This document shows, in pieces, positions 5,797 to 33,607 of a stretch of 37,753 nucleotides of DNA (position 1 is the stretch's first letter; every line of letters starts with the position of its first letter). The stretch comes from Candidatus Omnitrophota bacterium (GTDB lineage: Bacteria; Omnitrophota; Gorgyraeia; Gygaellales; Profunditerraquicolaceae). The DNA lies in assembly GCA_028716705.1 (NCBI GenBank), contig JAQUPI010000012.1, positions 1-37,753 of the forward strand. The letters run 5' to 3'. Position numbers and translations under genes: made by a program. The notes below the pieces were generated by a model that searched no databases, was not told the DNA's origin, and worked only from the letters and a program-made list of their open reading frames with translations.

Positions 5797-7161
5797 CTAC
5801 TTTACGATGGTCCTCAGCAGGCTTAAAAATCCCGGGAAGGACTTGCTTATACAGTTAACGTCATCCAGGCATGTCCGCCCTTGGGCTCCCAAGCCGGCTA
5901 TAACCATACTCATCGCTGTCCGGTGGTCGGAAAAGCTTTTTACTTTCGCGCCTAAAAGGGGGGTACCGCCATGGATTATTATTTTCTCATGGCGGGAGAT
6001 CTTTGTAAGTCTAATATCCGCACCCATTTTCATCAAATTCTCCGACATCGACCGGATACGGTCAGTCTCTTTTACCCGCAGCTCTTCGGCTCCTTCAAAT
6101 ACGGTCCGGCCTTTCGCGAAACAGGCGGCCACCATCAAGATCGGTATTTCATCTATCAGGGCGGGGATTTCCGCTCTTCTAACAAGGGTGCCTCTCAATT
6201 TACTGCTTTCGACTTGCAAATTTCCCACCGGCTCCCAACTTGTGGCTTGTGGCTTGTGGCTTTGCCTGTCGGAAGGCAAACCACGGCCCCCTGGACAGTG
6301 GCTTGTGACCTTAATACGGCCCCCCATCCTCTTTAAAATGGTGATTATCCCCGCCCGGGAGGGATTTAAGTTTACGTTTTTTATCAAGATGCGCGATCCG
6401 GGCAGGATCGTTCCCAAAACCAGGAAGAAAGCGGCGGAAGAAATATCACCGGGAATAATAATTTTAGCGGGAGGGGCCAATTCCCTGCCGCCTTTTATAA
6501 CTACAGAGTTTTTATGGACTTTTATCTCTGCCTTAAATAAACGCAGCATACGCTCGGTATGGTCGCGGGTAGGGATAGCTTCGATAACAGTGGTCTTACC
6601 TTCGGGATAAAGCCCGGCCAATAAAACAGCTGATTTTACCTGCGCGGAAGCGACCGGCAACCGAAATGTAATAGGTTTAAGATCCGCGCCGGTTATAGTT
6701 ACCGGCGGATATTCGTCTTTGCCGAGTTTACATCCCGAATTTATGGCAGCTCCCATTGCCCTTAGGGGAGAGATGACACGCAGCATCGGCCTCTTGCTCA
6801 AAGAGCTTCCCGCGGTTAAGACCGTACGGAAACGCTGGCCGGCCAAGACGCCCAGGGAAAGCCTGAACGTAGTGCCCGAATCCCCGGTATTGATTGGCCC
6901 GCGCGGGGCCTTCAGGCCGTAAAGCCCTTTACCGAGAACACGGACAGATCTGTTTTTCGGATCTTGTATTATTTTTATTCCGAAACGCTTGAAAGTTTGT
7001 ACCGCGTAAAAAGGGTCTTTTCCGGGAGGGAAATTCTTTATTGTGGTCTTACCTTTGCTGAGAGAGCTTATTATTATCGAACGGCAGGCTATGGATTTAT
7101 CGCCTGGTAAACTGACCTTCCCCTTGGCATGCCTGGCGGGATTGACTGCGAAAAAACTCAT
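5797..7161 (-). CDS. aroA: 3-phosphoshikimate 1-carboxyvinyltransferase (EPSP synthase)
   Basis: GDKSIACR, GDSGTTFRL, PLRAMGA, LIDEIPILMVAACFAKGRTVFEGAEELRVKETDR, SFSDHRTAM. Contains a repeat-bearing insertion (see findings). Confidence 0.95.
   Translation of the reverse strand: MSFFAVNPARHAKGKVSLPGDKSIACRSIIISSLSKGKTTIKNFPPGKDPFYAVQTFKRFGIKIIQDPKNRSVRVLGKGLYGLKAPRGPINTGDSGTTFRLSLGVLAGQRFRTVLTAGSSLSKRPMLRVISPLRAMGAAINSGCKLGKDEYPPVTITGADLKPITFRLPVASAQVKSAVLLAGLYPEGKTTVIEAIPTRDHTERMLRLFKAEIKVHKNSVVIKGGRELAPPAKIIIPGDISSAAFFLVLGTILPGSRILIKNVNLNPSRAGIITILKRMGGRIKVTSHCPGGRGLPSDRQSHKPQATSWEPVGNLQVESSKLRGTLVRRAEIPALIDEIPILMVAACFAKGRTVFEGAEELRVKETDRIRSMSENLMKMGADIRLTKISRHEKIIIHGGTPLLGAKVKSFSDHRTAMSMVIAGLGAQGRTCLDDVNCISKSFPGFLSLLRTIVK
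6240..6309. repeat. Heptanucleotide repeat cluster inside aroA: 3 x TTGTGGC (6240-6260) and one TTGTGAC (6303-6309), with an intervening hairpin
   Basis: Plus strand TTGTGGCTTGTGGCTTGTGGC, then TTTGCCT-GTCGGA-AGGCAAA (6261-6280), then TTGTGAC. Confidence 0.8.
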
Positions 7162-26250: not shown

Positions 26251-27615
26251 TTATTTTCCCGGAAAAATATTTTCCATTTTCATGGAGCGGGAACCCTTAA
26301 CCAGCACAAAATCGCCTTTTCCCAGCGATAGACGGGAAAAAATGATATCACGCGCGTTATCGGAGGTATCGCAGGAAAAGATCCTGCCTCTGTCAAAATA
26401 GGCGTCTTCGGCCGCTTTTGCCGCCATTCTCGATAAGGGCCCTACCGTTATAAATACATCGCAGCATTGCGCCGCGCGGCGGCCGGCCTCATAATGGAAT
26501 TTTTGGCTGTCCCTGCCCAGCTCCAGCATATCCCCCATGACAAAAACCTTCTTTCCCTTTACCGGTATACGGGTGAAGGCATCCAATGCCTGCTCTAGAG
26601 AAAGAGGGTTAGAATTATAGGTGTCGTCAATAAATCTGATACCGCGTAATACCCTGATCTTAAGCCTGCCTTGAGGAAAATCAAATGTCTTTAACCTTGA
26701 GGCGATATGTTTATGGGGAATGCCAAATACCCGCCCGGCCGTTATCGCGGCCAAGGCATTATAGATATTATAATACCCTGGAGTATTCAATGTAAATTTA
26801 TATTTTTTATTAACGTAAAAGCTGTGGCTTCCGCGGAGGCTGATTATATCCGAAGCCGAGAAGTCCCCGCCATTGTTTATCCCAAAGCTTAAAACAAAAG
26901 TTTTACCGCCTTTGGCCGCTATCTTGCTTTTTAATAAGCCGTCGTCCGAATTCAGTATACAGATGCGGGGGTTCTTCAGCCCTTTTACGACATTGTATTT
27001 TTCCCTCAAAACTCCCGCTATGGTCCCGAAATGCTCCAGGTGGCTAGGCCCGATATTTGTGATAATTCCTATATTCGGCTCGCATATGCCGGCGAGGTAC
27101 CCGGCTTCCCCAAAATGGTTTGTGCCTATTTCGAGCACGGCGATCTGGAAAGACTTGTCCAACCTAAGCAGCGTTAAGGGCAGGCCTATATGGTTGTTTT
27201 TAGTGCCTTCGTTTTTCAATACCTTGAAATTATTCGAAAGGACATGGGCGGCCATATCTTTTGTAGTGGTCTTCCCATTACTGCCCGTAACCGCGATAAC
27301 CGGGATATCGAATCTTCTCCTGTGGAACCTGGCAATATCGCCCAGCGCCTTTGTCGTATCCTTTACTTTAATGACAGGTAATTTGTGACTTGTGACTTGT
27401 GACTTGTGACTTGTGACTATTACGGCCTTTGCTCCCCTCTTAATCGCCTGGCCGACAAAATCGTGCCCGTCAAAATTGTCCCCCTTTACCGCTATGAAGG
27501 CGTCGCCTGGTTTCAGGGTCCTTGAATCTATGGATATGCCCTTTACGCGCCCGTTTGAAACTCCGCCGGAGAAATATCCCCCAGACGCTTCCGTTAATTC
27601 ATCGAGCGTAAACAT
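26251..27615 (-). CDS. murF: UDP-MurNAc-tripeptide--D-Ala-D-Ala ligase
   Basis: SIDSRTLKPGDAFIAVKGDNFDGHDF, VTGSNGKTTTKDM, EIGTNHFGEAGYLAGI, FIDDTYNSNPLSLEQAL, GDMLELG. Contains a heptad repeat insertion. Confidence 0.96.
   Translation of the reverse strand: MFTLDELTEASGGYFSGGVSNGRVKGISIDSRTLKPGDAFIAVKGDNFDGHDFVGQAIKRGAKAVIVTSHKSQVTSHKLPVIKVKDTTKALGDIARFHRRRFDIPVIAVTGSNGKTTTKDMAAHVLSNNFKVLKNEGTKNNHIGLPLTLLRLDKSFQIAVLEIGTNHFGEAGYLAGICEPNIGIITNIGPSHLEHFGTIAGVLREKYNVVKGLKNPRICILNSDDGLLKSKIAAKGGKTFVLSFGINNGGDFSASDIISLRGSHSFYVNKKYKFTLNTPGYYNIYNALAAITAGRVFGIPHKHIASRLKTFDFPQGRLKIRVLRGIRFIDDTYNSNPLSLEQALDAFTRIPVKGKKVFVMGDMLELGRDSQKFHYEAGRRAAQCCDVFITVGPLSRMAAKAAEDAYFDRGRIFSCDTSDNARDIIFSRLSLGKGDFVLVKGSRSMKMENIFPGK
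27383..27417. repeat. 5 tandem copies of TTGTGAC inside murF
   Basis: Plus strand TTGTGAC x5 with no mismatch; coding strand GTCACAA x5. Confidence 0.95.
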
Positions 27616-29057
27616 TCTCTGGCAACCTTGCTATCGTTAAAATATACCGTCTTCCCTTTTAACACCTGGTAATTCTCATGGCCCTTGCCGGCTATTAACA
27701 CGATATCCCCTTTCTTAGCCAGGAAGAGCGATTCCCTGATCGCCTTCTCGCGGTCAAAAATAACCCGGTAATTATCCTTCTTTATCCCTTTTATTACGCC
27801 GTTTATTATTTCTTCCGGGTCCTCGGACCGGGGATTATCGCTGGTAATAATAACGCGGTCCGCCAGTTCAGAAGCCGCGCGCCCCATCTTTGGCCTTTTC
27901 CCCTTGTCGCGCTCGCCCCCGCACCCGAAGACGACAATTATCCTTCCTTCGGATACCTGCCTTAAGGAGCTTATTACATTGGTAAGGGCGTCATCAGTAT
28001 GCGCGTAATCCACAAAAACGGAAAAACCTTTGTCGCACCTTATCCGCTCCAGCCTTCCGGGCACAGAATAAAATTTCTCAAAAACGCTTTCTAACGCCTC
28101 CCTGGGCAATCTTTCCCCTAGGGCCCAGGCGCAAGCCGCAAGGACATTGTAAACATTATGGCGGCCTATAAGCCTGGTTTTAAGGCGTATATTTTCTTTA
28201 AGCAATTTCAGATCGAATTCGGTACCCAAAATGCCCAGCTCTATGTCGCCGGCGCGCACATCGGCGTCGTTTTCTATGGCGTAAGTAATTACCCGGCGCC
28301 CCTTAACCATGCCCTTAAGCCTGCGGCCATATTTATCGTCAATATTGATCACGGCGAACGCGTCGCGGCCTAAAGACTTAAAAAGCTTTGATTTGGCCAG
28401 GAAATAATCCGCGAATGTACGGTGATAATCCAGGTGGTCCTGCGTCAAATTGGTAAAAATAGCGGAATGGAAATCGATATCGGCTGTCCTGTCCTGGGAA
28501 AGGGCGTGCGACGAAACTTCCATTATCGCGTGGGTTAGTTTACTTTTTACCATTTCCTTAAGGAAGGATTGCAGCTCGACCGCGCCCGGGGTGGTATTCC
28601 TGGAAGGTAGGATTTTATTCTTAAGGCGGTAATTAATCGTACCTATGACAGCGGGTTTAAAACCGGAACTCTTTAATAACGCTTCCAAAAGGTAAGTTAT
28701 GGTGGTCTTGCCGTTTGTCCCGGTGATACCCGCGACTTTTATCTTTGAGGAAGGATAACCGTAAAATCCAGCGGCCAGCCTCGCCAGCGCCCCGCGCGCG
28801 TCTTTTACCTGAATAAACGCTGCTCTTTTGCTTGTGTCTTGTGACTTGTGTCTTGTGACTATTATCGCTTTTGCTCCCTTTTCTATCGCCTCTTCGATAA
28901 ATTGCCGTCCGTCTAAACGCGTCCCTTCTATAGCGACAAAAATAAAGCCATCGGAAATTTCCTTGGAATTGCAGCTGATGCCTTTTACTTCGAAATCCTC
29001 AAAACCTCGGGCGGTTATTGGCTTATCCAGCGCGCTAATCAGTTCTTTGGCTTTCAT
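27594..29057 (-). CDS. murE: UDP-MurNAc-L-Ala-D-Glu--diaminopimelate ligase
   Basis: GITGTNGKTTITYLLE, NTTPGAVELQSFL, MEVSSHALSQDR, VDYAHTDDALTNV, ITSDNPRSEDP (DNPR motif associated with meso-DAP). Confidence 0.96.
   Translation of the reverse strand: MKAKELISALDKPITARGFEDFEVKGISCNSKEISDGFIFVAIEGTRLDGRQFIEEAIEKGAKAIIVTRHKSQDTSKRAAFIQVKDARGALARLAAGFYGYPSSKIKVAGITGTNGKTTITYLLEALLKSSGFKPAVIGTINYRLKNKILPSRNTTPGAVELQSFLKEMVKSKLTHAIMEVSSHALSQDRTADIDFHSAIFTNLTQDHLDYHRTFADYFLAKSKLFKSLGRDAFAVINIDDKYGRRLKGMVKGRRVITYAIENDADVRAGDIELGILGTEFDLKLLKENIRLKTRLIGRHNVYNVLAACAWALGERLPREALESVFEKFYSVPGRLERIRCDKGFSVFVDYAHTDDALTNVISSLRQVSEGRIIVVFGCGGERDKGKRPKMGRAASELADRVIITSDNPRSEDPEEIINGVIKGIKKDNYRVIFDREKAIRESLFLAKKGDIVLIAGKGHENYQVLKGKTVYFNDSKVARECLRSMN
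28832..28859. repeat. 4 tandem heptads (TTGTGTC/TTGTGAC alternating) inside murE
   Basis: Plus strand TTGTGTC TTGTGAC TTGTGTC TTGTGAC. Confidence 0.93.
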
Positions 29058-32680: not shown

Positions 32681-33607
32681 TTAAGAATGGGGGGGAAAAG
32701 CCTTACTCGCGGAAAACACGTCTTTTTTGATCTGGAGGGCCAAAGCTTCTTTTGTGGCGAATTTCTTGTCTTTCCTTATCTTTTTCACAAAATGAACTTC
32801 TAAATCTTTTCCATAAATATTCTTTTTAAAATTAAAAAGATGTACTTCTACGCGTTTTACCTGTGACCCGTGACCTGCGGCCCGTGACCTTATTGTCGGC
32901 CTCGTGCCGATATAACATACTCCTTTGTGTTTTTTATTATCCAGAACGGCTTTCACCGCGTAAATCCCCGCCGGCGGCAGTATTTCGTGGTGAGGATTTA
33001 TATTAGCGGTGGGAAAACCCAGCCTTGCGGCCAAAGAATCGCCCTTGACCACCGTCCCCAGGATACTCACCGGTTTTGAAAGCAATCTCTCGGCGGAACT
33101 TAATTCTCCATTCGCGATCAGCTTGCGTATGTATGTGCTGCTCACCGGCCGACGGTTCTTTTTTATGATATTGAATGCCTTGGCTTTAAAATGACAGGTA
33201 TCTGACAGCTTATTTAGAAGTCTAAAATCGCCCGACGCGTGTTTACCGAACCTGTAATTACTCCCGGTATAAACATAGTGTACGCCGAGCCTCTTGACCA
33301 ATATATCTTTTACGAAATCTCGCGCGGATAAACCCGAAAACGCCTTGTTGAAATTTATGACGACGCTTACATCCAATCCCAGTTCCCCTATTAATCTTAG
33401 GCGGTGTTCCAAAGAATAAAGGCTGCTTTCTTTGTGCGGGTCAGGCCAGAAGGTCACGACCACGCTCGTGCCATTTATACGCCTGGCTTTTTCCACCGCC
33501 GCCTTTAATATCCTGCGATGCCCCAGGTGCACCCCGTCGAAAACCCCCAGCGCCACCACGGGCTTCTTGAATTTCTTGATCTTATTGACACCGTATATGA
33601 TCTTCAT
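32681..33607 (-). CDS. ribF: Bifunctional riboflavin kinase/FAD synthetase
   Basis: VALGVFDGVHLGHRRIL, STYIRKLIANGELSSAERLL, GDSLAARLGFPTANI, GVCYIGTRPTI, VEVHLFNF. Contains a heptad repeat insertion. Confidence 0.94.
   Translation of the reverse strand: MKIIYGVNKIKKFKKPVVALGVFDGVHLGHRRILKAAVEKARRINGTSVVVTFWPDPHKESSLYSLEHRLRLIGELGLDVSVVINFNKAFSGLSARDFVKDILVKRLGVHYVYTGSNYRFGKHASGDFRLLNKLSDTCHFKAKAFNIIKKNRRPVSSTYIRKLIANGELSSAERLLSKPVSILGTVVKGDSLAARLGFPTANINPHHEILPPAGIYAVKAVLDNKKHKGVCYIGTRPTIRSRAAGHGSQVKRVEVHLFNFKKNIYGKDLEVHFVKKIRKDKKFATKEALALQIKKDVFSASKAFPPHS
32861..32888. repeat. 4 degenerate heptads (CTGTGAC CCGTGAC CTGCGGC CCGTGAC) inside ribF
   Basis: Same 7-bp period and YYGTGAC core as the repeats in murF/murE/aroA. 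Confidence 0.75.

Follow-up and report, generated by a model that had tools for sequence, protein, structure and literature searches.

Why do two neighbouring, paralogous Mur ligase genes carry the same seven-base repeat in the same loop? The interior of conserved bacterial genes is generally assumed to be closed to tandem repeats, and in a Candidatus Omnitrophota bacterium such a repeat follows the GAKAxIVT strand of both murE and murF. A first-pass annotation of this DNA proposed that a repeat had targeted a shared sequence twice or that gene conversion had spread it between the paralogues. These proposals were examined in the window (the whole stretch of 37,753 nucleotides that was analysed), in about 1.48 of 1.87 Mb of this genome (G000), assembled from stretches, and in 110 murE and 104 murF genes (214 in total) of the order.

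Heptad arrays in the window

The window is a dcw-type cluster with mraZ-, rsmH-, ftsI-, murE-, murF-, mraY- and murD-like ORFs (names beyond MurE and MurF were read from the translations), and the nearest named genome by MurE is an Omnitrophica MAG with 52% identity. The presence of one heptad family after the GAKAxIVT strand in both Mur ligases was confirmed by the sequence and by Tandem Repeats Finder (Table 1). On the minus strand the DNA at the array is ATAGTCACAAGACACAAGTCACAAGACACAAG in murE, translated as VTRHKSQDTSK in the loop after GAKAII, and ATAGTCACAAGTCACAAGTCACAAGTCACAAG in murF, translated as VTSHKSQVTSHK in the paralogous loop after GAKAVI. The DNA identity claimed earlier also holds, as 32 nt (ATAGTCACAAG[A/T]CACAAGTCACAAG[A/T]CACAAG) are alike save for two positions, both of them the seventh base of a unit, which alternates between A and T in the murE array and is T throughout the murF array. 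With ≤ 2 mismatches, CACAAGTCACAAG had 9 matches in the window against 0.23 expected, and 0 of 100 shuffles reached 9.

Two more arrays of the window, in aroA and ribF, were absent from the first-pass annotation; the degenerate repeat in ribF is possibly a decayed member of the CACAAG family. The aroA array encloses a palindromic element whose 39-bp core (TGGCCAGAAGGCCGTGGTTTGCCTTCCGAYAGGCAAAGC) is near-identical in aroA and in porA-like and rnfC-like genes. In all three genes the core is in frame and the heptad register is preserved: with CACAAG units on both sides of the 39 bp, the CAC-to-CAC spacing becomes 42 bp, i.e., six units or 14 codons.

Table 1 Features in the window and related features elsewhere in the same genome (G000)
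Feature	Position	Strand	Description
murE heptad array	28831..28860	(-)	~4.1 units CACAAG[A/T]; Tandem Repeats Finder, 7/14-bp period
murF heptad array	27383..27418	(-)	5.1 units CACAAGT, 100%; Tandem Repeats Finder
murE (UDP-MurNAc-tripeptide synthetase)	27594..29057	(-)	ORF; Pfam Mur_ligase, Mur_ligase_M, Mur_ligase_C; PDB relatives
murF	26251..27615	(-)	ORF; Pfam
Third CACAAG-family array, aroA hairpin loop (QSHKPQATS)	6239..6262	(-)	3.4 units CACAAGC
aroA (EPSP synthase), host of the third array	5797..7161	(-)	ORF; Pfam
Palindromic element (~39 bp) inside the aroA heptad array	6261..6300 (approximate)	(-)	
Degenerate 7/14-bp repeat in ribF (RSRAAGHGSQV)	32859..32890	(-)	Tandem Repeats Finder
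Palindromic core copy, porA-like gene	G000 C2:81570-81610		
Palindromic core copy, rnfC-like gene	G000 C1:96150-96195		
Signal peptide from inverted heptad pair, exported protein (L162)	G000 C37:2856-2943		
Signal peptide from inverted heptad pair, exported protein (L099)	G000 C2:66233-66316		

A dispersed family and a recurrently filled loop

CACAAG-N stands in both Mur loops because the two arrays belong to a repeat family that is dispersed through the genome. When CACAAGNCACAAGNCACAAG was searched with ≤ 3 mismatches, 65 overlapping matches were obtained that cluster into about 29 places, and the reversed control gave 0. In a scan for tandem segments, lag 7 yielded 26 segments with a score of at least 12 in 1.48 Mb, a Markov-3 copy of the sequence yielded 0, and the count was 1–9 at most of the other lags up to 13. 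The lag-7 excess recurred in two relatives (21 segments in 288 kb of G010 and 9 in 99 kb of G053), in which other short lags yielded 0–5. Lags 23 and 24 also showed an excess in G000 (17 and 4 segments with a score of at least 12), and a long poly-C run that ends a contig (G000 C8:49382-49441) is probably an assembly artefact. The CACAAG arrays sit chiefly within ORFs, with VTSHKSQ as the in-frame reading, and their in-frame hosts beyond the Mur ligases and aroA include purD, ispG, prmC, truA, hisS, argC, and gltB-like genes. MurE, MurF, AroA, IspG, PurD, PrmC, TruA, HisS, ArgC-type and aconitase-family hosts were confirmed by Pfam, while the names GltB, PorA, RnfC, and Gmk were read from translations.

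Across the order, 15 of the 16 lag-7 tracts in the 214 Mur genes lie within the loop after GAKAxIV, which makes up 6.7% of the Mur sequence (binomial P about 4e−17), and an outgroup control of 104 murE/murF genes from other phyla held 0 lag-7 tracts in this loop. The unit differs in nearly every array-bearing species: CACAAGT in G000, AGTGGCC in G053, CAGTCCA in G052, GTATCAG in G020, GAAGACA in G033, AATTCAA in G027, CGGTACA in G073, ATACGAC in G055, TTCAGCT in G012, and TTCAGCC in G010. The loop of G004 is filled by octads, and two genomes carry dissimilar repeats in the two paralogues (CGTCGTC in murE and TTCAGGC in murF of G044; octads in murE and GGACAGA heptads in murF of G123). The idea of a shared sequence targeted twice thus survives in part, since the loop is recurrently filled in both Mur ligases order-wide and the genome holds about 29 arrays, but what the sites can be shown to have in common is a homologous, structurally permissive loop, not a DNA target. 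Most relatives do have ordinary divergent DNA in the loop, the outcome that had been named as speaking against a repeat expansion, yet 15 loops contain other heptads. In loops without strong arrays, the periodicity that remained in a codon-shuffled test was only weak (z = 3.3 at lag 14 and 1.6 at lag 7).

Other dispersed palindromic repeats also occur in frame in the Mur loop (L269 in the murF of G063, L283, L270, L267, L248, and L256), so this loop is a general landing site, beyond heptads. In the murF loop of G010 the array is duplicated with its halves in different reading frames (C5:29890-30010), which may reflect frameshifting by slippage or a fault of the assembly.

The abundance of a unit follows the genome in which it is found. 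TTCAGCC (≤ 3 mismatches) had 54 matches in G010, 11 in G055, and 0 in G000, while CACAAG had 38 in G000 and 0 both in G010 and in four genus-mates; GTATCAG and TTCAAAA, which were also tested, are less abundant in their own host genomes. At the level of the phylum the CACAAG family is patchy (50 of 286 genomes). Unit families are thus largely genome-specific, and as the units track the abundant family of each genome, the Mur-loop arrays are local members of that family. In the whole genome of a genus-mate (G003), the reversed control pattern was matched 15 times, by GAACACN heptads, which suggests another heptad family there, and inverted TCAGC array pairs that could form hairpins lie outside ORFs of ≥ 120 aa in G010 (C5:2821-2874, C5:15770-15823, and C12:3512-3570), like the convergent pairs described in Xanthomonas.

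Refilling is not confined to the Mur ligases. The aroA hairpin carries AATTACC units in G003, TCAGCTN in G010, AATGTCA in G013, and AAGCCAC in G000, and the same loops are reused in rnfC (G000, G010), recG (G010, G053), and two loops of prmC (G000, G053). For purD, the empty loop has 20 codons and is common to 11 relatives, whereas the loops with arrays in G000, G014, and G028, each of another heptad, reach 27 codons and are thus longer by exactly 21 bp, which corresponds to three units or seven codons; a fourth carrier (G034) has 24 codons. The ispG loop gained 21 bp as well (28 codons in G000 against 21 at the shortest), and a genus-mate (G002) has a different heptad in it. The dispersal, the preference for loops, the genome-specific units, and the gains in purD and ispG are direct readings of the sequences compared. 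Array-bearing loops are no longer than other loops among the Mur genes of the order or in aroA, therefore simple insertion is insufficient for them and insertion with deletion, or overwriting, is assumed. An empty site with matching flanks was not seen for murE or murF among the relatives, because MurE identity to genus-mates is only about 65%.

Tolerance of the arrays and their probable origin

In the AlphaFold model of this MurE (mean pLDDT 92.4) the array residues form a coil (68–79) with strands on either side (62–67 and 80–83), and this coil falls in the lowest-confidence block of the model. Lying between two strands and bound to no fixed sequence, the first loop in the N-terminal domain of Mur ligases is permissive. 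A 7-bp repeat yields one and the same heptapeptide in every frame, and therefore orientation alone matters. Read forward, CACAAG-N is stop-free for any N and polar; read in reverse, it contains a stop if N is T and is hydrophobic if N is A. The three reversed in-gene arrays that could be assigned are all of the CACAAGA type and all lie in signal peptides, and two of these are paired with a forward array that provides the charged or polar start, the reverse CACAAGA array providing the hydrophobic core. These two inverted pairs (Table 1) were recognised by eye, and a scan for inverted pairs with exact cores found none. The in-ORF TCAGC arrays of G010 are in the stop-free orientation in 9 of 9 cases. 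The pattern of orientation and frame fits purifying selection on a dispersing repeat, and it is from this pattern that we infer the selection.

Probably, then, a dispersed heptanucleotide family lands in permissive loops or overwrites them, and is filtered by frame, stops, and the tolerance of the loop. For the spread itself we infer the following course. In murE and murF alike, and across many species of the order, the Mur loop would have been filled time and again by the heptad family, or now and then the octad family, that the genome has in abundance; existing arrays would give rise to new copies through replication slippage, or through template switching, at short homologies, and these copies would then lengthen through slippage. 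The copies that survive in genes would be those that keep the frame, by adding 21 bp (three units) or by a length-compensated replacement, that contain no stop in the given orientation, and that lie in tolerant segments, where a polar reading may suit loops and a hydrophobic one signal peptides. Slippage with template switching is favoured because units common to unlinked loci require copying between loci, and their homogeneity within arrays suggests later slippage. Against this course stands that no enzyme or template for the copying was found. A stronger version, in which a copying process of this order actively rewrites the permissive loops of core enzymes with the current heptad family while length is kept, so that unrelated units overwrite orthologous loops in parallel and palindromic elements ride along in register, is tentative and, on balance, somewhat doubtful.

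A dedicated mobile element or a templated-addition enzyme is an unlikely source; on this view the arrays could be what remains of a small palindromic element like those of Rickettsia, or its borders, or else products of telomerase-like addition. Such a source would account for the palindromic core with CACAAG units on both sides in the aroA, porA-like, and rnfC-like genes, for similar palindromes nested in Mur-loop heptad or octad arrays of G055, G066, G064, and G053, for the larger dispersed element in the murF loop of G063, and for the fixed core word of heptads in which one or two positions vary. The majority of arrays are, however, without a palindrome, full cores number only three in 1.48 Mb, no target-site duplication was seen, and four perfect units retrieved one contig in a viral scan and nothing in a plasmid search. 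Gene conversion across the homologous GAKAxIVT stretch, carrying the repeat from murF to murE or in the reverse direction, appears improbable, although ATAGTCACAAG stands in the same phase in both genes. The check for conversion tracts gave a divided picture: the 21 nt upstream of the array, where a short tract may lie, show 86% identity of murE with murF, which places this genome at rank 2 of 85 against a median of 48%, but the downstream flank is ordinary (61%, rank 15), and the two arrays differ in their units (alternating A/T against pure T). The CACAAG-N family is not restricted to the murE/murF pair, with about 27 of its places being non-paralogous to it (among them aroA, purD, ispG, and prmC), and the murE and murF units of G123 and G044 differ from each other, so conversion between the neighbouring paralogues is unneeded and is not a likely general route.

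That the heptads serve as contingency loci, with phase variation by slippage frameshift, is very improbable: one unit gained or lost does shift the frame, and the halves of the duplicated murF array of G010 are in different frames, but this case may be an assembly error, the hosts are essential or housekeeping enzymes and not genes for surface proteins or antigens, the arrays are neither long nor fully regular, and lengths preserve the frame in nearly all orthologues. Hardly credible at all is that protein-level selection for a Ser/Lys/Gln/Thr-rich loop, or chance, gave similar codons in the paralogues. The array peptides are polar and suited to surface loops, yet the period-7 repeat is out of phase with the codons, an identical DNA unit recurs in unrelated genes, relatives have quite different peptides in the same loop, and chance is ruled out by the shuffles; as an explanation of the likeness of murE and murF, protein selection alone is refuted by the periodicity at the DNA level.

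Comparison with known repeat systems

On the preferred reading, this lineage appears to draw new loop sequence for its essential enzymes from repeats pooled across the genome, in steps of 21 bp where a length change can be read. One loop, many species, and many units make up a natural replicated experiment on the spread of repeats without a known enzyme and on how loops acquire sequence, and SHKSQVTSHKSQ-like peptides in metagenomic proteins should be taken with caution as repeat DNA and not as functional motifs. A literature search, largely without subscription papers, returned no such repeats in Omnitrophota/Omnitrophica and no repeated refilling of one enzyme loop.

Rickettsia palindromic elements and other bacterial MITEs fuse in frame to genes (reviewed in PMC2229807), and the CACAAG arrays share with the former the trait of being in frame and tolerated within conserved protein genes (PMC2229807); gmk is a host of Rickettsia palindromic elements, and in this genome a gmk-like ORF likewise contains an array. 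These elements are palindromes of 100–150 bp with terminal inverted repeats, whereas the murE and murF tracts are direct repeats of 30–36 bp with no palindrome, unlike some other arrays of this genome in which palindromic cores are nested. In Geobacter metallireducens, the available part of one report describes an element of four GGACCGG heptads in 49 copies which, like CACAAG-N, occurs both within and between genes (PMC2700814). It was read there as a regulatory RNA, and that part of the report describes no preference for loops and no turnover of units between orthologues (PMC2700814).

In unit length the arrays resemble the LSSR/STRR heptads. Long simple repeats most often have a unit of seven nucleotides in many bacterial genomes (Mrazek 2007, as cited in PMC4679880). 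Examples include the TAACTGA family of Beggiatoaceae (PMC4679880), the GGGAATC heptads of Xanthomonas along with families in Nostoc (PMC4692102), and the STRR repeats of cyanobacteria (mentioned in PMC2670836). Like these, CACAAG-N has a 7-bp tandem unit above chance at many unlinked loci, forms short arrays at tens of loci with one or a few units dominant per genome, is patchy among relatives, and sometimes occurs as close inverted array pairs. The tendency of LSSR/STRR-type repeats towards intergenic sites is not matched, as the TAACTGA and Xanthomonas repeats are described as mainly intergenic and as depleted from the coding strand of ORFs, while CACAAG-N lies mostly within conserved genes. 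A further difference from these heptads is that here the same enzyme loops are refilled with other units in other species.
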